Positions 42,116 to 61,716 of a stretch of DNA of 64,000 bases are shown here, in pieces (positions within the stretch are counted from its first letter, which is position 1; each line of letters opens with the position of its first letter). The stretch comes from Candidatus Bathyarchaeota archaeon. GTDB lineage: Archaea > Thermoproteota > Bathyarchaeia > Bathyarchaeales > Bathycorpusculaceae. The position numbers and the translations under genes are program-made. The notes beneath the pieces are model-generated. The model made no database searches and was not told the origin of the DNA. It worked only from the letters and a program-made list of their open reading frames with translations. Where the stretch lies: the NCBI GenBank assembly GCA_026014685.1, contig JAOZHW010000007.1:124001-188000 (forward strand), in the 5' to 3' direction.

Positions 42116-42144
42116 TCGGTGACTGTTTGGACAGGTTCGAAGCA

Positions 42145-42231
42145 ATGACCAACACACAACGCAGAAACGTTAATGCATGGCAACGCGACAGCTTCGACTA
42201 TGGCTTTTATTATTTCGGTTATTTTCCTTAA
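42145..42231 (+). CDS. Aromatic-residue leader peptide (candidate attenuator)
   Basis: A 28-codon ORF (ATG 42145, TAA 42229-42231) between the TATA box and aspartokinase. Residues 6-15 read RRNVNAWQRD and residues 17-27 read FDYGFYYFGYF, so 8 of 11 residues are Phe (4) or Tyr (4), with one Trp at residue 12. The operon it precedes makes chorismate, the precursor of all three, and ends with tyrosine-branch enzymes. It is followed with no gap by a 9-bp inverted repeat. No strong Shine-Dalgarno precedes it, consistent with a near-leaderless mRNA. It is too short to be a functional protein; a ribosome-sensing role is the natural reading but is an inference. Confidence 0.75.
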   Translation: MTNTQRRNVNAWQRDSFDYGFYYFGYFP

Positions 42232-42269
42232 GCCCAGAACTGAAAAATTTTTGTAAAGCGGTTCTGGGC
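42232..42269 (+). promoter_or_regulatory. Perfect 9-bp hairpin between leader ORF and aspartokinase
   Basis: GCCCAGAAC (42232-42240) and GTTCTGGGC (42261-42269) are exact complements. The 20-nt loop contains a T5 run (42248-42252), able to act as an archaeal terminator. The 5' arm begins at the base after the leader stop codon; the 3' arm ends 8 nt before a GGGTG Shine-Dalgarno (42277-42281). A ribosome at the leader stop would cover the 5' arm, whereas one stalled at the aromatic codons would leave it free. It could thus control termination or translation. Confidence 0.7.
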
Positions 42270-54006: not shown

Positions 54007-54819
54007 TTAGATGACTCTGGGGTAGCTTCCCAGAATCTTGACGAAAGTCGCAAACTTCTCCAACGCTTCCAGCGCTTCTGCGCAGTGTTTTTCAGTTCTA
54101 TGACCTTCAAAGTCGAGGTAAAAGTTGTATTGCCACGCTGTGGTTTTGGTGGGGCGGGATTCGATGCGGGTGAGGTTGATGTTGCGTGATGCGAATTCGC
54201 CCAGTGCATGGTAGAGGGTTCCCGGTGCGTGTTTAGCGCTGAAGATAATGCTGGTTTTGTCGTCTCCCGTCGGCGCTGCATCTTCCAAGCCTAAGACGAG
54301 GAAGCGGGTGTAGTTGCTTGGGTTGTCAGCGATGTCTCGTGCGAGGATTTTCATGTTGTAGAGGTCTGCGGCTTTTTCGCTTGCAATGGCAGCGGCGTTC
54401 GATAAAGCTTTTTCTTTGATGATTTTAACTGAGCCTGCGGTGTCGTAGGCAGGGATGATTTCCCATTTGTGTTTTTCAAGGTATTTGCGGCACTGCGCTA
54501 GCGCTTGTGGGTGTGAGTAAACGGTTTCTATATCTTCGAGTTTAGTTTGGGGATTGCCGATCAAGACGTGGGCGAGTTTAACTGCGACTTCGCCGCAGAC
54601 TTTAAGGTCATAAGTTAAGAAGAGGTCGTAGTTTTGGTTGACGCTGCCCTCAATCGAGTTCTCAATCGGGACGACGCCGTGTGGAACGGTGCCTGTTTTG
54701 ACTGATTCGAAAACGTCTCGGAAATCCTTGCAGGGCACTGGCTCTACTTTTCTGCCAAAAAACTTGTAGACCGCCATTTCGCTGTATGCGCCAGTTTCGC
54801 CCTGATAGGTTACCTTCAT
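54007..54819 (-). CDS. pheA: Prephenate dehydratase
   Basis: 270 residues. The PDT domain (about 1-180) has VTYQGETGAYSEMAVYKFFG, GVVPIENSIEGSVNQNYDLF, SHPQALAQCRKYLE and the catalytic Thr region NYTRFLVLG (about 168-176). A C-terminal ACT domain (about 192-265: TSIIFSAKHAPGTLYHALGEFASRNINLTRIESRP) gives feedback inhibition by phenylalanine. It is the last gene of the branched-chain operon, overlapping leuA by 4 bp, away from the aromatic operon that ends on the opposite strand. Confidence 0.95.
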   Translation of the reverse strand: MKVTYQGETGAYSEMAVYKFFGRKVEPVPCKDFRDVFESVKTGTVPHGVVPIENSIEGSVNQNYDLFLTYDLKVCGEVAVKLAHVLIGNPQTKLEDIETVYSHPQALAQCRKYLEKHKWEIIPAYDTAGSVKIIKEKALSNAAAIASEKAADLYNMKILARDIADNPSNYTRFLVLGLEDAAPTGDDKTSIIFSAKHAPGTLYHALGEFASRNINLTRIESRPTKTTAWQYNFYLDFEGHRTEKHCAEALEALEKFATFVKILGSYPRVI

Positions 54820-56342
54820 TGTTTCTTGCCTTGATTACGATTCTTTAGTAGGCACTTGTTTATACCGTTTATCATTGCTTCCACCGATGCCATGACTATG
54901 TCTTCTCGGGCGGCGCGTGCTGATACTATGTTGCCTTTTTCGTCTTCGACTTTTATGACAACTTCAGCAACTGCGTTAGAGCCTCCCGTGATGGCTTCGA
55001 GGCGGTATTCGCTTAAGCGGATTTTTTCGAGGTTGCTGGTTAATTTCTGGATGGCTTTTAGCACTGCATCTACTGGGCCGACGCCTGTTTCTGCAGCAAC
55101 GTACTCTTTGCCGTCTAAGGTTAAGCGTACGGAGGCGGTCGGGATTACTTTTATGCCGGTAACCACTGCCATGTCGCAGAGGTCAACGATTTTTTCTTCC
55201 CCAACTACTTGACCCATAACAGTAGAGGTTATTGCAATGAGGTCTGCGTCGGTAACCATTTTGCCTTTGTCGCCTAACTCTTTGACCCGTTTGACGATGT
55301 CACTCAGTTGGGCTTCGGTTGGGTGGATACCGATTTCTTGTAACTCCGCTTTGATGCCACGTGTGCCAGCCAGTTTGCCTGCGACGAGTTTGCGGGTTCT
55401 TCCGACGAGTTCGGGGCTGATGGGTTCGAAGGTTAAGGGTTGCTCGGTTACGCCTCGGGTGTGGATTCCTGATTCGTGTGCGAAGGCGTTTTCGCCGACT
55501 ATGGCTTTGTTTACCTGTACGGTGATGCCTGTTAGGGATGAGACCATGCGGCTGGTGCTGTAGAGTAAACGTGTGTTTATGTTGGTTTTGTACTTGTAAA
55601 CCACATGTAATGTAGTGACAACTTCTTCTAAGGCAGCGTTTCCTGCGCGTTCACCTAACCCATTTACTGCTGTGTGTACTTGTGAGGCGCCTGCTTCGAC
55701 AGCTGCGAGGCTGTTTGCTACAGCTAAACCGAAGTCGTTGTGGCAGTGTACACTAATTGGCACTTTAACAGTTGTTTTCAATTCAGTTATTAACTCAGCC
55801 ATGGTCTTGGGAATCATGATACCAACGGTGTCAGGCACGTTTAAACTGTCCATCCCTGCGTCCTGTGTGGCTTTGCAGATTTTCTTCAGAAAAGGCAACT
55901 CACTGCGGGTTGCATCCATAGGCGAGAACTCGCAGGTTACACCATGTTTCTTCACGTATTCAACGGATTCCACCGCCGAAGCCAATACCTGTTCGGGTGT
56001 CATGCTAACTGCATATTTCATCTGAACAGGTGACGTGGGGATGAATACATGGATTAAGTCTACGTTGCAATCCAATGCTGCATCTATGTCTTTTTTTGTG
56101 CACCGAGATAAGGCGCAGATTTTTGAGTTTAAACCCAATTTAGCGATGTCTTTGACGACTTTGCGTTCGCCTTCAGAACTACTGGGAAAACCTGCTTCGA
56201 TGATGTCGACGCCTAGTTTGCTTAGTTGGCGTGCTATCTCGATTTTGTCGTCAGTTGTTAGAGAAACGCCGGGGGTTTGTTCCCCGTCGCGCAAAGTTGT
56301 ATCTAAAATGCGGATAGTTCTTGTTTGAGTTTCTTTTGTCAT
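54816..56342 (-). CDS. leuA: 2-isopropylmalate synthase / (R)-citramalate synthase family
   Basis: 508 residues. HMGL-like TIM barrel with DTTLRDGEQTPGVSL (about 14-28), VHCHNDFGLAVANSLAAVEAG (metal-binding HCHND) and NGLGERAGNAALEEVV. The LeuA dimer (allosteric) domain occupies about 375-495. The family includes isopropylmalate and citramalate synthases, which are hard to tell apart by eye. The operon (leuCDB, ilvBN) fits either leucine synthesis or the threonine-independent isoleucine route. It overlaps pheA and lies 6 bp after leuB. Confidence 0.9.
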   Translation of the reverse strand: MTKETQTRTIRILDTTLRDGEQTPGVSLTTDDKIEIARQLSKLGVDIIEAGFPSSSEGERKVVKDIAKLGLNSKICALSRCTKKDIDAALDCNVDLIHVFIPTSPVQMKYAVSMTPEQVLASAVESVEYVKKHGVTCEFSPMDATRSELPFLKKICKATQDAGMDSLNVPDTVGIMIPKTMAELITELKTTVKVPISVHCHNDFGLAVANSLAAVEAGASQVHTAVNGLGERAGNAALEEVVTTLHVVYKYKTNINTRLLYSTSRMVSSLTGITVQVNKAIVGENAFAHESGIHTRGVTEQPLTFEPISPELVGRTRKLVAGKLAGTRGIKAELQEIGIHPTEAQLSDIVKRVKELGDKGKMVTDADLIAITSTVMGQVVGEEKIVDLCDMAVVTGIKVIPTASVRLTLDGKEYVAAETGVGPVDAVLKAIQKLTSNLEKIRLSEYRLEAITGGSNAVAEVVIKVEDEKGNIVSARAAREDIVMASVEAMINGINKCLLKNRNQGKKQ

Positions 56343-56348
56343 TATAGG

Positions 56349-57383
56349 TCAACTTTTAGCCGTTAAGGCTGCGGCTATGGCTTCCGCCATGCCCAGAGTT
56401 GTGGTTTTACCGCCGCAGTCACCAACAGATTGACCATTCTTCAACGCGTAGATTACTCCGTTTTCTATAGCTTTTGCTGCCTTAATGCATTTAGGATCGC
56501 TGTATTTTTCTCCCAACCACTCCAGCATCATCTGTCCAGATAGAATCATGCTTAGTGGGTTTGCGGTGTGTTTGCCTGCGCGGTTTGGTGCAGAGCCGTG
56601 GATGGGTTCGAATAATGCAAAGTTGTCGCCGATGTTTGCGCCTGGAGCCATGCCTAAGCCGCCGATGAGTTGCGCTGCTTCGTCAGAGAGGATGTCGCCG
56701 AACATGTTGCATGTGCAGAGCACGTCGAAGAATTGGGGTTCTTTGATTAACCGCATGGATGCGGCGTCAACGTATAACTCGTTGAAGGCTATGTCTGGGT
56801 ATTGTTTGGCGACTTCACGGCATACATCGCGGAATAAGCCGTCAGTTACGCGCATGACGTTGGCTTTGTGGATGGCGGTTACGCGTTTTTTGCCGTTGCG
56901 TAGGCGTGCCATTTCGAATGCTTTTTTGGCTATGCGTTCGCTGTTTCTGCGGGTTATGACTCTTAAGCAGAGGGTGGTGTCTTCGCCGATTTTGAATTCT
57001 AAGCCTTTGTAGACGTCTTCGGTGTTTTCGCGTACGAATAGCATGTCGATGTCTGGGCGTGCAACTGGCACCGCGGGATACGCCTTCAACGGACGCAAGT
57101 TAGCGTAGAGGTCAAACATGTAGCGTAGTTTAACGATGACGTCTGCGGCTGATTCACCGACTGGACCCTTCATGCATGCGTGGCTGTTCTTGATAACCTC
57201 TACAGTTTCTGCGGGTAATGCGTTACCGAGGGTTTCAAGGGCTATGTCGCCTGCTGGGCACTCCATGATTTTGAATTTTAAACCGAATTCTTTCTCTACG
57301 CCCTTTAGGACTATAACGGTTGCTTCGGATAGTTCTGGTCCGATTCCGTCGCCTGGAATTAAGGATATTTTGTATTCAGTCAT
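56349..57383 (-). CDS. leuB: 3-isopropylmalate dehydrogenase family protein
   Basis: 344 residues of the isocitrate/isopropylmalate dehydrogenase family: ISLIPGDGIGPELSEATV, the substrate loop YANLRPLKAYPAVP, FVRENTEDVYKGLE, TAIHKANVMRVTDGLF and GGLGMAPGANIGDNFALFEPIHGSAPNRAGK. In this family the same protein can serve methylmalate (isoleucine) and isopropylmalate (leucine). It overlaps leuD by 4 bp. Confidence 0.92.
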   Translation of the reverse strand: MTEYKISLIPGDGIGPELSEATVIVLKGVEKEFGLKFKIMECPAGDIALETLGNALPAETVEVIKNSHACMKGPVGESAADVIVKLRYMFDLYANLRPLKAYPAVPVARPDIDMLFVRENTEDVYKGLEFKIGEDTTLCLRVITRRNSERIAKKAFEMARLRNGKKRVTAIHKANVMRVTDGLFRDVCREVAKQYPDIAFNELYVDAASMRLIKEPQFFDVLCTCNMFGDILSDEAAQLIGGLGMAPGANIGDNFALFEPIHGSAPNRAGKHTANPLSMILSGQMMLEWLGEKYSDPKCIKAAKAIENGVIYALKNGQSVGDCGGKTTTLGMAEAIAAALTAKS

Positions 57384-57883
57384 TTCTTATTCATTCTCCT
57401 ACGTAAATTCTCAATTAATCCGCCGTCCGCTAAGATTTCGAGTATGAAAGGCGGCAGCTTCTCAACCTGGAACTTTTTGCCGTTAGAGACGTTCTCGATC
57501 CTGCCGGCTTCAAAGTCCACAGCTAATTCGTCGCCATTCTTAACCGCACTTGATATGCCTTTGCATTCAATTACAGGTAAACCGATGTTGATTGCATTAC
57601 GGAAAAAGATACGAGCAAACGATTCAGCGATGACACATTTGACGCCAGAGTACTTCAACGCCAGAGGTGCCTGTTCACGGCTAGAGCCGCAGCCAAAGTT
57701 TTTGCCGCCGATCAAGATGATGCCCTGTTTGGCTTTTTCGACAAATTGAGTGTCCAAACCTTCCAGTGCATGCTTCGCTAAGTCGTAGGGATCTACTAGG
57801 ATTAGATATTTGCCGGGTAAGATGACGTCGGTGTCGATGTTGTTGCCGAAGACTACGGCTTTGGCTTTGATTTTGCTGTCCAT
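57380..57883 (-). CDS. leuD: 3-isopropylmalate dehydratase small subunit
   Basis: 167 residues, aconitase swivel domain: VVFGNNIDTDVILPGKYL and GGKNFGCGSSREQAPLALKYSGVKCVIAESFARIFFRNAINIGLPVIEC. The YLILVDPYDLAKHALEGLD specificity region follows the usual archaeal small-subunit layout. It overlaps the leuC stop by one base and leuB by four. Confidence 0.95.
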   Translation of the reverse strand: MDSKIKAKAVVFGNNIDTDVILPGKYLILVDPYDLAKHALEGLDTQFVEKAKQGIILIGGKNFGCGSSREQAPLALKYSGVKCVIAESFARIFFRNAINIGLPVIECKGISSAVKNGDELAVDFEAGRIENVSNGKKFQVEKLPPFILEILADGGLIENLRRRMNKK

Positions 57884-59145
57884 TATGCTTTAACCTCTCT
57901 TGGGTTAGTGATTTTCCCTGTCAATGCGGATGCCGCTACTGTTGCGGGTGAGGCTAAGTAGACGTTGGCTTGGGTGCTGCCCATTCTGCCGATGAAGTTG
58001 CGGTTGCTTGTTGCGACACAGGTCTCGCCCGCTGCCAGCAAGCCGATGTGGCCGCCTAAGCAGGGTCCGCATGCGCTGCCGCATACGATTGCGCCTGCAT
58101 CGGTGAAGATTTTCAGTAAACCTGCTTGGTCTGCCTGTTTCCAGACTTCTTGCGATGCTGGGATTACCAGTGCGCGAACGCCTTCTTTGACTTTCTTGCC
58201 TTTCATAACTTTCGCTGCCACCTGCAGGTCTTCTAATCTGCCGTTAGTACAGCTGCCGATGAATGCCTGATCTACTGGGACGTCGCCGACTTCGCTGACT
58301 GGTTTAACGTTATCTACTGAACTGGGGCATGCTACTTGTGGCTCCATCTTGGAGACGTCGAATTCGACGGTGCGCTCGTATTCTGCGTCTTTGTCGCTCT
58401 GCAGTGTTTCTAGGTTTGGCATTTTTTTGACTCTGCCCGCTAAGAATTCAGCGGTGGTTTCGTCGGGTGCGATTATGCCGTTTTTGGCGCCCATCTCAAC
58501 CGCCATGTTGCAGAGGGTCATTCTGCCTGCGTTGCTCATGGCTTTGATGGTTGGGCCTGTGAATTCGGCTGCTCGGTATATGGCGCCGTCTACGCTTAGG
58601 TTGCCGATGATGTTTAGGATTAGGTCTTTAGGTGTGACGTATTTTTGGAATTTTCCTTTTACGTTGACTTTGATGGTTGGGGGAACTTTAAACCAGATTT
58701 TTCCTGTTGCCATAACTGCGGCTGCTTCTGTACTGCCGATGCCTGTGGCGAAGGCTCCGAATGCACCGTAGGTGCATGTGTGGCTGTCTGCGCCGACGAT
58801 GACGTTGCCGGGGGTGACGTGGCCGTTTTCTGGCATGACTTGGTGGCAGATTCCGCCTCTGCCGACTTCGTAGAAGGTGAGGTTTTGTGTTTTGGCGAAG
58901 TTGCGCATGGTTTTGTGTAGTTCCGCTGCTTTCACGGATTCAGCGGGCACTTGGTGGTCCAGAATCACCACTACTTTTTTGTTATCCCAAACTTTTGGGG
59001 TGCCTATTTTTTTGAAGGCTTCCACAGCTAAAGGTCCAGTTAAATCATGCACCATGACCATGTCGACGTTGGCGTCGACGATTTCGCCTGGGTGCACGGT
59101 TTTTTTGCCTGCTGCTTTAGCTAATATTTTTTCTGTTATGTTCAT
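57883..59145 (-). CDS. leuC: 3-isopropylmalate dehydratase large subunit
   Basis: 420 residues, aconitase family. The [4Fe-4S] ligands are visible in GSCTNGR (one Cys) and GSACGPCLGGH (two Cys). Also VGADSHTCTYGAFGAFATGIGSTE and VMVHDLTGPLAVEAFKKIG. With LeuD it isomerises isopropylmalate (or citramalate). The 97-bp gap from ilvN is the only sizeable gap in the operon and shows no clear TATA box. Confidence 0.95.
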   Translation of the reverse strand: MNITEKILAKAAGKKTVHPGEIVDANVDMVMVHDLTGPLAVEAFKKIGTPKVWDNKKVVVILDHQVPAESVKAAELHKTMRNFAKTQNLTFYEVGRGGICHQVMPENGHVTPGNVIVGADSHTCTYGAFGAFATGIGSTEAAAVMATGKIWFKVPPTIKVNVKGKFQKYVTPKDLILNIIGNLSVDGAIYRAAEFTGPTIKAMSNAGRMTLCNMAVEMGAKNGIIAPDETTAEFLAGRVKKMPNLETLQSDKDAEYERTVEFDVSKMEPQVACPSSVDNVKPVSEVGDVPVDQAFIGSCTNGRLEDLQVAAKVMKGKKVKEGVRALVIPASQEVWKQADQAGLLKIFTDAGAIVCGSACGPCLGGHIGLLAAGETCVATSNRNFIGRMGSTQANVYLASPATVAASALTGKITNPREVKA

Positions 59146-59242: not shown

Positions 59243-59755
59243 TTATCCGTCGATTCTTATGGATTTTGTGCCTCGTGCCAATGCGGTGATGCCTGTGCGT
59301 GCGAGTTCGATGATGCCGAAGGTTTTCATCAGGTTTAGGAAAGCGTCGATTTTGTCTGGGGTGCCGGTGATTTCCACGGTTAAGCTGTCGAAGGATACGT
59401 CGATGATTCTGCCTCGGAAGACGTCTACGAAGTTGATGATGTCGCTGCGTTCTTTTGCGTCTTTTACTCCGACTTTAATGAGGGAGAGTTCACGCATGAC
59501 AAAGTTGCCGTATTCGAGTTCTCCGACTTTTAGGACGTCGATTTGCTTAGCGACTTGCTTGACAACTTGGTCAAGGGTTTTTTCGTCCCCGTTCACAGTT
59601 ATGGTCATGCGCGCTATGTCTGGTTGTTCGGTTGGGCCGACAGTGATGGATTCGATGTTGAAGTTGCGGCGACGGAACAAGTTGGCAATCATATGCAAGA
59701 CACCGGGTTTGTTTTCGACTAGGACGGATATGACTTTGGTTTTTCCAGCTTGCAT
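59243..59755 (-). CDS. ilvN: Acetolactate synthase small subunit
   Basis: 170 residues: N-terminal ACT domain (KVISVLVENKPGVLHMIANLFRRRNFNIESITVGPTEQ) and the C-terminal ALS_SS_C domain (RELSLIKVGVKDAKERSDIINFVDVFRGRIIDVSFDSLTVEITGTPDKIDAFLNLM). It regulates IlvB by valine-type feedback. Its ATG overlaps the ilvB stop by one base. Confidence 0.95.
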   Translation of the reverse strand: MQAGKTKVISVLVENKPGVLHMIANLFRRRNFNIESITVGPTEQPDIARMTITVNGDEKTLDQVVKQVAKQIDVLKVGELEYGNFVMRELSLIKVGVKDAKERSDIINFVDVFRGRIIDVSFDSLTVEITGTPDKIDAFLNLMKTFGIIELARTGITALARGTKSIRIDG

Positions 59756-61461
59756 TAGTAGTCACCTCTCTGTTGGGGTAAACCGCAGCCCGGCGGCACA
59801 AACGGAACCACATCCGTCTCTGAACCGATAGGCACATCGATTACCGTTGTTACTTTACTGGATAGTGCGGTCTTAACTGCTTTTTGGAACTCCGCTATGC
59901 TGCCAACTCGGAATCCTTGTGCTCCGTATGCTTCAGCTAATTTGACGAAGTCAGGGGTTTTGCCCAAGTTCACTGCCATATATCTGCGGTCGTAGAGGGT
60001 TCTCTGCCACTGCGCCACCATACCCAAGACACTGTTGTTTAGGACTATTACGGTGACGGGGATGTCTTCAGCGACGCTACAGGCGAGTTCCTGCTCAGTC
60101 ATGATGAAGCTACCGTCTCCTGCGATGTCCACAACGGGACGGTTGGGGCATGCGACTTTGGCGCCTAACGCTGCAGGGAAACCGAAACCCATGGTTCCCA
60201 ATCCTCCGCTGCTGATGAATGTTCGTGGCTTTAGTGCTTTGAAGTAGAGTGCACTCCACATCTGGTTTTGGCCGACTTCAGTTGTGACTATGCCGTTTTC
60301 TGGTAGCAGTTCACGTAACGCCATAAGCAAGTGTTTGGGCACAACTTCCCGTGGGCGATCCTTTAGTAAGGGGCTTAATTTTTCTTTAACTTCCTTAACA
60401 CGCTTGGTCCATGCTGCACCTTCGCCCTTCGCCAGTTTCTTGGTGGTGGCTTTCAGAAGCATCTGCATAGACTTCTTTGCGTCTGCAACGATGGGAACGT
60501 CCACTTCGATGTTCTTGTTTATTTCCGCGTTATCGATTTCTAGATGAATCTTTTTTGCGTTAGGCGCAAACGTGTCGAGGTTTGCGGTTGCGCGATCGCT
60601 GAATCTGGTGCCGACTGCTAAGAGCACATCTGCTTCACCCATCAGTCGGTTAGCTGCGGGGTTGCCGTGCATGCCGATACTGCCCAATGACAAAGGATGA
60701 GTTTCAGGGAAGACACCTTTACCCATAAAGGTGGTTGCAACGGGCGCCATAAGCAAATCTGACATCTGCATGATTTCGTCGGAGACACCTGCAGTTATAG
60801 CTCCGCCACCCGCCAAAATAATTGGGTACTCTGCTTTGGAGAGCAGTTTAGCGGCTTCGCTAATTTTAGCTGGATCTGGGTCGCCTGGCAGCTTGTAGCC
60901 TCGGGCGTCGATTTTGTCGGTGAATTCAACTTCTGCGATACCTGCTTGAACGTTCTTGGGTAAGTCGATTAGGACTGGACCAGGTCTGCCAGTAGTAGCT
61001 AGATAAAACGCACTTTTGACGGCGACTGGAATTTCGTTAACCGTGCGGGGTTGATAGCTATATTTTGTGATGGCTGTGGTTATGCCGATTATGTCTGCTT
61101 CTTGGAAAGCGTCGCGTCCAATCATGTAGCTAGTGTTGACACCTGTGGAGGGCACTTGCCCTGTTAGGGCGATGATGGGTGAGGAGTCCATGTATGCGTT
61201 GGCGATGCCTGTTACGAGGTTGGTTGCTCCGGGGCCTGAGGTTGCCATGCACACGCCTGCGCGTCCGCTGGCTTTGGCGTAGCCTTCGGCGGCGTGGGCT
61301 GCACACTGTTCATGTCGTGAGAGGATGTGGCGGATTTTCTTGTTAGTGCAGAGTGCATCGTATACTGGGAGTATGGCGCCGCCTAAGATGCCGAAGATCA
61401 CGTTACATTTTTCTCGTTCAAGGGATTCTAGTAGTGCCTGTGCACCGCTCATTTGAGTCAT
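59755..61461 (-). CDS. ilvB: Acetolactate synthase large subunit
   Basis: 568 residues, ThDP-dependent. Catalytic Glu in SRHEQCAAHAAEGYAKASG (about 48-50), ATSGPGATNLVTGIANAYMDS, the FAD region RFSDRATANLDTFAPNAKKIHLEID, and the ThDP motif GDGSFIMTEQELACSVAEDIPVTVIVLNN (about 440-468). It makes acetolactate and acetohydroxybutyrate, the first common step to valine, leucine and isoleucine. First enzyme gene of the operon; AAGGAGA lies about 15 nt upstream of the ATG. ilvC and ilvD are not in the window. Confidence 0.96.
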   Translation of the reverse strand: MTQMSGAQALLESLEREKCNVIFGILGGAILPVYDALCTNKKIRHILSRHEQCAAHAAEGYAKASGRAGVCMATSGPGATNLVTGIANAYMDSSPIIALTGQVPSTGVNTSYMIGRDAFQEADIIGITTAITKYSYQPRTVNEIPVAVKSAFYLATTGRPGPVLIDLPKNVQAGIAEVEFTDKIDARGYKLPGDPDPAKISEAAKLLSKAEYPIILAGGGAITAGVSDEIMQMSDLLMAPVATTFMGKGVFPETHPLSLGSIGMHGNPAANRLMGEADVLLAVGTRFSDRATANLDTFAPNAKKIHLEIDNAEINKNIEVDVPIVADAKKSMQMLLKATTKKLAKGEGAAWTKRVKEVKEKLSPLLKDRPREVVPKHLLMALRELLPENGIVTTEVGQNQMWSALYFKALKPRTFISSGGLGTMGFGFPAALGAKVACPNRPVVDIAGDGSFIMTEQELACSVAEDIPVTVIVLNNSVLGMVAQWQRTLYDRRYMAVNLGKTPDFVKLAEAYGAQGFRVGSIAEFQKAVKTALSSKVTTVIDVPIGSETDVVPFVPPGCGLPQQRGDY

Positions 61462-61557
61462 ATCTACACATGGTCTCCTTGTAGGTTTATGCTCTCGTCT
61501 AAACAGATATTTGTCTGCGAGAATTTTGTGGATGATTTAGAGGGTTGCCTGGATGGG

Positions 61558-61614
61558 TTAGAAGAATTGTACCCGTCGATCCCAGCTATTGAGGTGACGA
61601 TCCCTCATGTTCAT
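61558..61614 (-). CDS. Short ORF upstream of ilvB sharing a motif with the aromatic leader
   Basis: 18 codons from ATG 61614 (a second ATG at 61608) to TAA. Residues 6-14 read RHLNSWDRR, and the peptide ends VQFF. The core R-[NH]-[VL]-N-[AS]-W-[QD]-R matches residues 7-14 of the aromatic leader at 42145, while the codons differ, so the resemblance is in the peptide. GTGGAG lies about 11 nt upstream. It sits 97 bp before ilvB. It is not rich in Ile, Leu or Val codons, so simple branched-chain attenuation does not fit; two Phe codons before the stop are notable because pheA ends the operon. Coding is unproven. Confidence 0.4.
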   Translation of the reverse strand: MNMRDRHLNSWDRRVQFF

Positions 61615-61635
61615 GCCTCTTGAAACTCCACGTAC

Positions 61636-61716
61636 CTAAAAGGGTAGACACCGAGCTAATAAAAAGATTGTGGTGTAACTGTGGCTTGTTGACACCAAAA
61701 AGGCAACAAAAAACAT
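61636..61716 (-). CDS. Short hydrophobic ORF with a strong Shine-Dalgarno, upstream of ilvB
   Basis: 26 codons from ATG 61716, starting MFFVAFLVST and ending IFLLARCLPF: five Phe, four Leu, two Val and one Ile. GGAGG stands 10 nt upstream. It ends 21 bp before the next short ORF, giving two tandem ORFs ahead of the operon. It could be a leader peptide sensing hydrophobic amino acids, but T-rich sequence often produces such peptides by chance, and the frame stays open further upstream. Confidence 0.3.
   Translation of the reverse strand: MFFVAFLVSTSHSYTTIFLLARCLPF

Follow-up and report, generated by a model that had tools for sequence, protein, structure and literature searches.

A conserved open reading frame before leucine genes in one order of Bathyarchaeia as a candidate leucine-responsive leader peptide

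The ilvB operon and its upstream open reading frame

The DNA analysed here (the window) is a stretch of 64,000 nucleotides from a Bathyarchaeia genome of 2.3 Mb. Its minus strand carries an operon with the gene order ilvB-leuC-leuD-leuB-leuA-pheA. The first gene, ilvB (59755..61461), encodes the acetolactate synthase large subunit (TIGR00118) and is followed by genes for a leuC-like 3-isopropylmalate dehydratase large subunit (57883..59145), a leuD-like small subunit (57380..57883), a leuB-like isopropylmalate dehydrogenase (56349..57383), 2-isopropylmalate synthase (leuA, 54816..56342) and prephenate dehydratase (pheA, 54007..54819), the last of which had been correctly placed at the operon end in the original prediction. 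The nearest named ilvB relatives lie in Bathyarchaeota/Crenarchaeota metagenome-assembled genomes, for example JAAZFA010000132.1 (82% identity) and JAOAIX010000001.1 (81%).

A short open reading frame (ORF) precedes ilvB, as had been predicted. It was first drawn as MNMRDRHLNSWDRRVQFF plus a stop codon at 61558..61614 on the minus strand, 97 nt from ilvB; the plus strand of this interval is unrelated. The outer ATG at 61614, which adds MN to the peptide, is not conserved and stands only 1 nt from the Shine-Dalgarno sequence AGAGG (61616..61620, minus strand). The inner ATG (61608-61606) is conserved in relatives and is spaced 7 nt from AGAGG, and for these two reasons it is probably the true start of the upstream ORF (uORF), so that the predicted ORF stands with a different start codon. 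The leader uORF therefore reads MRDRHLNSWDRRVQFF and a stop (61558..61608, minus strand), with start, frame and stop kept in 29 loci of the genus. Its first six codons, MRDRHL, form an 18-nt core, ATGAGGGATCGTCACCTC (61591..61608, minus strand), common to leuS and leuC leaders. A TATA-like box, TTTTTATTA (61657..61665, minus strand), lies about 53 nt 5' of the uORF start, and the ilvB gene has its own Shine-Dalgarno sequence, AAGGAGA (61474..61480, minus strand); these signals, like AGAGG, were read from the sequence. We use the term MRDxxL leader for such a start pattern with a Shine-Dalgarno sequence just 5' of ilvB, leuC or leuS, which the window contains at 61591-61620.

We then compared the ilvB loci from the best 30 of 46 matching genomes. 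The ORF, whose presence in close relatives had been named as a check, was found in 29 of the 30 loci, each keeping the island ATGAGGGATCGTCACCTC[AC]ATAGCTGGGATCGTCGGGTAC 3' of the TATA-like box and GAGG before the ATG. In the thirtieth locus (L060), which belongs to another genus, the ORF is shorter and reads MRDRFLR before its stop. The TTTTA column of the TATA-like box is invariant in all 30 aligned upstream regions. Of the 29 leaders of the genus, 24 terminate at codon 17, and TAA, TGA and TAG are all used; the commonest tail is V-L-I-L, and a Leu stands at codon 16 in 18 of 29, encoded by CTT, CTC, CTA or TTA, so this end of the ORF behaves like a coding tail. Codons 4, 7, 8 and 12 change largely non-synonymously (R/C, N/H, S/N/C and R/W, respectively), and many third positions are frozen, which together indicate that the island is constrained as nucleotides.

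Two further arrangements were observed in these leaders. Two GGGATCGTC units, GGGATCG(T/A)C, lie inside the genus leader (61563-61608, minus strand), 21 bp or two helical turns apart. In other families of the order (L226, L227, L228 and L230), the ilvB leader modules GGGATnnnCGGGTAC and GAGGnATCGnnnCCTC are swapped relative to the genus and, as read from the sequence, stay in frame, giving for example VRDIRVRRNRYLHS and a stop.

The proposed shared motif and the aromatic leader

A second short ORF, MTNTQRRNVNAWQRDSFDYGFYYFGYFP with a stop codon (42145..42231, plus strand), precedes aspartate kinase and archaeal aromatic pathway genes and served as a comparison; it is not an MRDxxL member. According to the original prediction, this ORF and the ilvB ORF belong to one leader family, in which a shared motif, R-x-[VL]-N-[AS]-W-x-R, interacts with the ribosome and each peptide has a sensing tail of its own. 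The likeness within the window is real: without gaps, R, N, W and R are identical and V/L and A/S are conservative pairs, and R.[VLIM]N[AST]W.R occurs at these two places only in the six frames of the window. Both peptides have the motif. When the aromatic leader was shuffled 3000 times, 6 of the shuffles scored at least as high as the best ungapped BLOSUM62 alignment of the pair (34), which is better than chance for this one pair, although the pair was chosen for its likeness. When ilv and aromatic leaders of the same genome were paired, the shuffle fraction was at most 0.05 in 5 of 27 pairs, where about 1.4 would be expected, and the strict motif underlay only the pair of the window.

The leaders of relatives speak against the shared motif. 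Only 1 of 30 aromatic leaders contains it (N[AS]W is present in 2 of 30), along with 14 of 29 genus ilvB leaders and 7 of 61 ilvB, leuC and leuS leaders from other genera. In the latter set, the start MRDx[FYHVI]L is found in 55 of 61, the six misses being L217, L226, L227, L228, L230 and L229, of which L229 was scored in the wrong frame. Moreover, the ilv letters at the place of the motif are constrained as nucleotides. A motif search at the DNA level found the pattern in 31 of 61 genomes, and the 30 loci read were nearly all chance-like, mostly in unrelated frames, so that these matches were ruled out as support; the pattern even missed the ilvB ORF of the window, because it was blind to AGY serines. 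Judged by the aromatic leaders of relatives, a motif family joining the two ORFs is already refuted, and we regard it as extremely improbable. What survives is the idea of a leader family before amino-acid genes, in the form of a family of leaders upstream of leucine genes.

The tails had been read as Phe/Tyr-rich in the aromatic leader and as VQFF in the ilvB leader. The second reading fails in the genus, where V-L-I-L prevails, and the first was confirmed in every locus: among the aspartate kinase loci, taken from the best 30 of 45 matching genomes out of 61, all 30 have a leader ORF of 25-29 residues with a terminal aromatic run. Phe, Tyr and Trp make up 57% of the last 14 residues and 4% of the rest, and the N-terminal half is freely variable. 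Two helices accompany the ORF on the plus strand. TCGAAGC (42137..42143) is the 5' arm of a helix around the start, with its partner at 42191-42197, and GCCCAGAAC (42232..42240) is the 5' arm of a hairpin directly 3' of the stop, with its partner at 42261-42269, a perfect 9-bp stem with a U-run in the loop. Both helices are kept in all 30 loci: pairing holds in 98.3% of cells, and two-sided changes occur at three pairs. None of 500 shuffles, which ignore relatedness, matched the pairing percentage. On this comparative evidence, the aromatic leader counts as a genuine attenuator-like element outside the motif family proposed for it, and it resembles an archaeal Phe/Tyr attenuator.

Reach and constraint of the MRDxxL leaders

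The conserved part of the family is the start [ATG]TG-AGG-GAY-NNN-NNY-CTC, encoding MRDx[FYHVI]L, behind a Shine-Dalgarno sequence. When 162 genomes of the order were searched with a covariance model of the island, 67 had a match at E ≤0.5, and 48 of these reached E ≤0.001; weak matches lay upstream of leuC-like and leucyl-tRNA synthetase genes (identities by NCBIfam). A class-wide pattern matched 90 of 256 genomes. For this narrower pattern, 40 loci were read: ilvB, leuC or leuS lay downstream in 25 of 26 in-order loci, the exception (L270) being at a contig end, and none of the three genes followed the element in the 12 loci from outside the order or in 2 more in-order ones. With the looser pattern DTGAGGGAYNNNNHYCTC, 94 of the 127 in-order matches listed were directly upstream of ilvB (51), leuS (36) or a leuC-like gene (7); a further 23 matches were listed outside the order. 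The distance to leuS was 70 nt in 25 of the 36 matches and 67 nt in 11. The other 33 in-order matches were all fetched, and none was near ilvB, leuS or leuC.

Searching from the leuS genes, we found the uORF 64-73 nt before the start in 33 of 70 loci (30 best plus 40 chosen across families), with the near variants L303 (VRGSVL..) and L376 (VRNSVL..) left out of the 33. In a phylum scan, the narrow pattern was present in 24 of 64 in-order genomes and in none of the 11 genomes from other parts of the class. Outside the class it matched 1 of 323 genomes, at a place not before a leucine gene; the reversed pattern, as a control, gave 3 matches in the same 398 genomes. An off-register pattern with one extra base, an unplanned control, gave 41 matches in 32 of 162 genomes, several of which were one repeated tRNA-like sequence. 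These comparisons outline a compact, clearly delimited family across one order of Bathyarchaeia, common to leucine synthesis and leucyl-tRNA synthetase genes.

Two genus members (L414 and L416) have an ORF, MRD[IN]LLYIHSYL and a stop, behind GGTG that fits the leader pattern and does not precede ilvB, leuC or leuS; it is possibly another leader or chance. One genome (G072) has two leucyl-tRNA synthetase genes (L221 and L292), each with its own uORF, MRDGYLNS and MRDNVLLED, both ending in a stop.

The leuS copies are informative about translation. Of 30 distinct leuS uORFs, 26 have their first stop at codon 9 or 10, compared with a mean of 3.8 and a maximum of 10 in 1000 shuffles, and all three stop codons are used (TAA 13, TGA 11, TAG 6), so the uORF is very likely translated. 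The starts are ATG (21), TTG (7) and GTG (2). Codon 3 alternates between GAT and GAC and codon 4 is free in MRDxxL leaders, leuS leaders show free variation at the three codons that follow Leu, and the shortest leader copy is just MRDCFL and a stop. The Shine-Dalgarno letters are GAGG or GGAGG before the ilvB uORFs, GAGG before those of leuC and mostly GGTG before those of leuS, at a constant position.

Codon 2 is AGG in 29 of 29 ilvB and 30 of 30 leuS leaders, although AGG accounts for 6.7% of the Arg codons of the window. This invariance and the frozen third positions indicate that the nucleotides as such are constrained; the fixed AGG might pair with YCTC, serve as a deliberately slow codon or belong to a DNA site that something binds. 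Next to leuS, there is also a promoter-like box, CTTTAATA/CTCTTAATA, between the uORF and the gene, about 35 nt before the leuS start codon. The same box is present in leuS genes with and without the uORF (L343-L381, L283-L309), which suggests a second, nearly leaderless promoter; some leuS transcripts may thus lack the uORF, a point against a simple attenuator.

The rare invariant AGG and the leuS box keep explanations by a DNA or an RNA site alive. In the first, a leucine-responsive transcription factor would bind TGAGGGA-N-TCCTC-like DNA and the open frame would be incidental. Nucleotides fixed beyond the needs of a peptide fit an operator, as do near-palindromic copies (GAGGGATCGATTCCTC), the 21-bp spacing of the two genus units, which would suit a DNA-binding dimer, and the TATA-like box adjoining the element before leuS. 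An operator does not explain, however, why gene-associated copies have A, G or T in front of TG, as start codons do, but any base at the mirror position after CTC, why the stop position is kept with all three stop codons, or why Shine-Dalgarno-like letters stand at the correct distance. In addition, the element is on the strand of the gene in the 94 gene-associated matches, and it lies 3' of the TATA-like box before ilvB but 5' of the one before leuS. We therefore consider an operator unlikely.

A structured RNA, either a riboswitch or a protein-bound RNA whose conserved letters are open by chance, was weighed against the folds. In the window, CCTCT (61539..61543) is a possible partner of the uORF Shine-Dalgarno sequence (helix P1), and CTGGG within the uORF (61581..61585) could pair with TCCAG 3' of its stop (61549..61553) as helix P3, all on the minus strand. 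The core GAGG/CCTC is pairable in 29 of 29 genus sequences, in favour of an RNA fold, but never varies on both sides; P3 has only G-C to G-U changes. A possible three-helix model of the ilvB leader showed no two-sided change in the 29 sequences, and all shuffles reached its pairing percentage. Stronger pairing of the uORF Shine-Dalgarno sequence was seen in five loci of three other genera (L204-L208; z -3.1 to -4.5), in which the uORF lies inside a nine-pair helix, along with a hairpin, GUCGG-GUA-CCGAC. Two pairs of this hairpin changed on both sides, a result equalled by 62 of 500 shuffles of the five sequences, so that the pair changes are weak as covariation.

Sequestration of the uORF Shine-Dalgarno sequence by the pre-gene region was ruled out as a general switch, being weak or absent outside L204-L208. 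The duplex test gave z < -1.5 in 6 of 29 genus ilvB, 11 of 23 other ilvB, 2 of 5 leuC and 1 of 33 leuS leaders, counts that include L229 (wrong frame) and L203 (truncated upstream region). An alternative-helix search across the sets revealed lineage-specific helices only. The module swap in L226-L230 would also suit a structured RNA. Against such an RNA, the small size of the leuS copies leaves no room for a pocket, and the duplex test showed no such helices in them. Rfam, searched up to E of 5, returned four matches only, all far below gathering scores and to unrelated families, and there was no match in the window. We rate a structured RNA as quite unlikely.

A leucine-responsive reading and its relation to known systems

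The genes downstream of the leaders are of three kinds, acetolactate synthase heading the leucine operon, isopropylmalate dehydratase and leucyl-tRNA synthetase. Where the leader precedes ilvB or leuC, 57 of 58 genomes have a leuC-like gene; where it precedes leuS, only 5 of 50 do. The genomes being related and some incomplete, this is a trend rather than a set of independent events. The trend suggests that leucine makers control the pathway and non-makers the synthetase, with the leader following, in each lineage, whichever gene is limiting for leucine supply. CTC, the commonest Leu codon of the window (24%), is the one Leu codon that never varies in the leaders. Enrichment of Leu codons was absent, with a single Leu codon in most leuS leaders and mostly VLIL tails before ilvB in the genus. 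That the uORF has no sensing role and just adjusts the basal translation or re-initiation of the gene behind it is very unlikely: uORFs with a Shine-Dalgarno sequence can alter re-initiation, and most copies end far from the gene start, at about 40-100 nt, but the leader precedes leucine genes only among the matches examined, moves with leucine pathway content and has a fixed CTC.

We favour, with somewhat better than even confidence, the reading of the ORF as a leader peptide that responds to leucine and belongs to one order of Bathyarchaeia. Comparison across genomes shows that the uORF is conserved, together with its start, frame and stop, and that it stands before leucine genes. We infer that leucyl-tRNA would be the signal and CTC the sensing codon, and that starvation would raise expression. 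RNA polymerase would transcribe a leader of roughly 170 nt before ilvB, and a ribosome would load at AGAGG, initiate at ATG, GTG or TTG and read the fixed opening Met-Arg(AGG)-Asp-any-[Phe/Tyr/His/Val/Ile]-Leu(CTC), with a stop soon after. When leucyl-tRNA is short, the ribosome would wait at CTC; when it is plentiful, the ribosome would finish the uORF and leave. Its position would thus set the expression of the ilvB operon, leuC or leuS. As the favoured last step, the waiting ribosome would stop the elongating polymerase from terminating, by transcription coupling, and the local helices would differ by genus. A bolder version, which we put forward only tentatively and hold to be rather less than an even bet, is that the hexapeptide opening is an archaeal leucine sensor, read in the ribosome at one CTC, and hence a minimal attenuator, portable between ilvB, leuC and leuS according to leucine synthesis versus import. 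If true, the hexapeptide sensor would represent a ribosome-based archaeal amino-acid regulon without a regulatory codon run or a general terminator hairpin.

Ribosome-controlled leaders of amino-acid genes are textbook knowledge in bacteria. A literature search, with most subscription journals outside its scope, found no report of a ribosome-controlled amino-acid leader in Bathyarchaeia, nor of a leader peptide for leucine or aromatic amino acids in archaea. PMC10219788 notes, as a general statement, that uORFs are active in archaea as well. Archaeal transcription-translation coupling and FttA termination are treated in PMC8116511 and PMC11616081, where exclusion of FttA by a coupled ribosome is a proposed hypothesis. 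Coupling in archaea and this exclusion hypothesis make the coupling model attractive. The MRDxxL family makes archaeal control of transcription by coupled translation directly testable, and the aromatic leader of the window offers a second, more classical test case. The two have in common that an archaeal leader ORF precedes an amino-acid operon; unlike MRDxxL leaders, the aromatic leader has a classic Phe/Tyr codon run and a hairpin right after its stop, and it lacks the MRDxxL start.

Amino-acid attenuators with leader peptides are known in bacteria for ilvBNC and leuA of Corynebacterium and for trp, leu and ilv of enterobacteria. Such attenuators, as covered in PMC11857589, are the comparison class. 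The MRDxxL leaders likewise consist of a short ORF, here with translation argued by comparison, that stands before an amino-acid operon and contains the regulated amino acid. They differ in being archaeal, in their fixed MRDx[FYHVI]L opening with one CTC and no regulatory codon run, in that no general terminator/antiterminator pair was found, and in their occurrence before leucyl-tRNA synthetase as well.

Among arrest-peptide uORFs, TnaC, SpeFL, ErmCL and the AdoMetDC hexapeptide uORF are established cases. There, too, a very short peptide of fixed sequence precedes the regulated gene, as MRDCFL does here. The MRDxxL leaders are distinguished by being archaeal and belonging to leucine genes, with codon 4 free and AGG fixed as a codon, which is beyond what a pure peptide sensor would need. 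T-box leaders regulate aminoacyl-tRNA synthetase and amino-acid genes, and the gene kinds, leuS, ilv and leu, are the same; the MRDxxL leaders, in contrast, have no Rfam match and comprise a few tens of nucleotides plus an ORF rather than a large fold.
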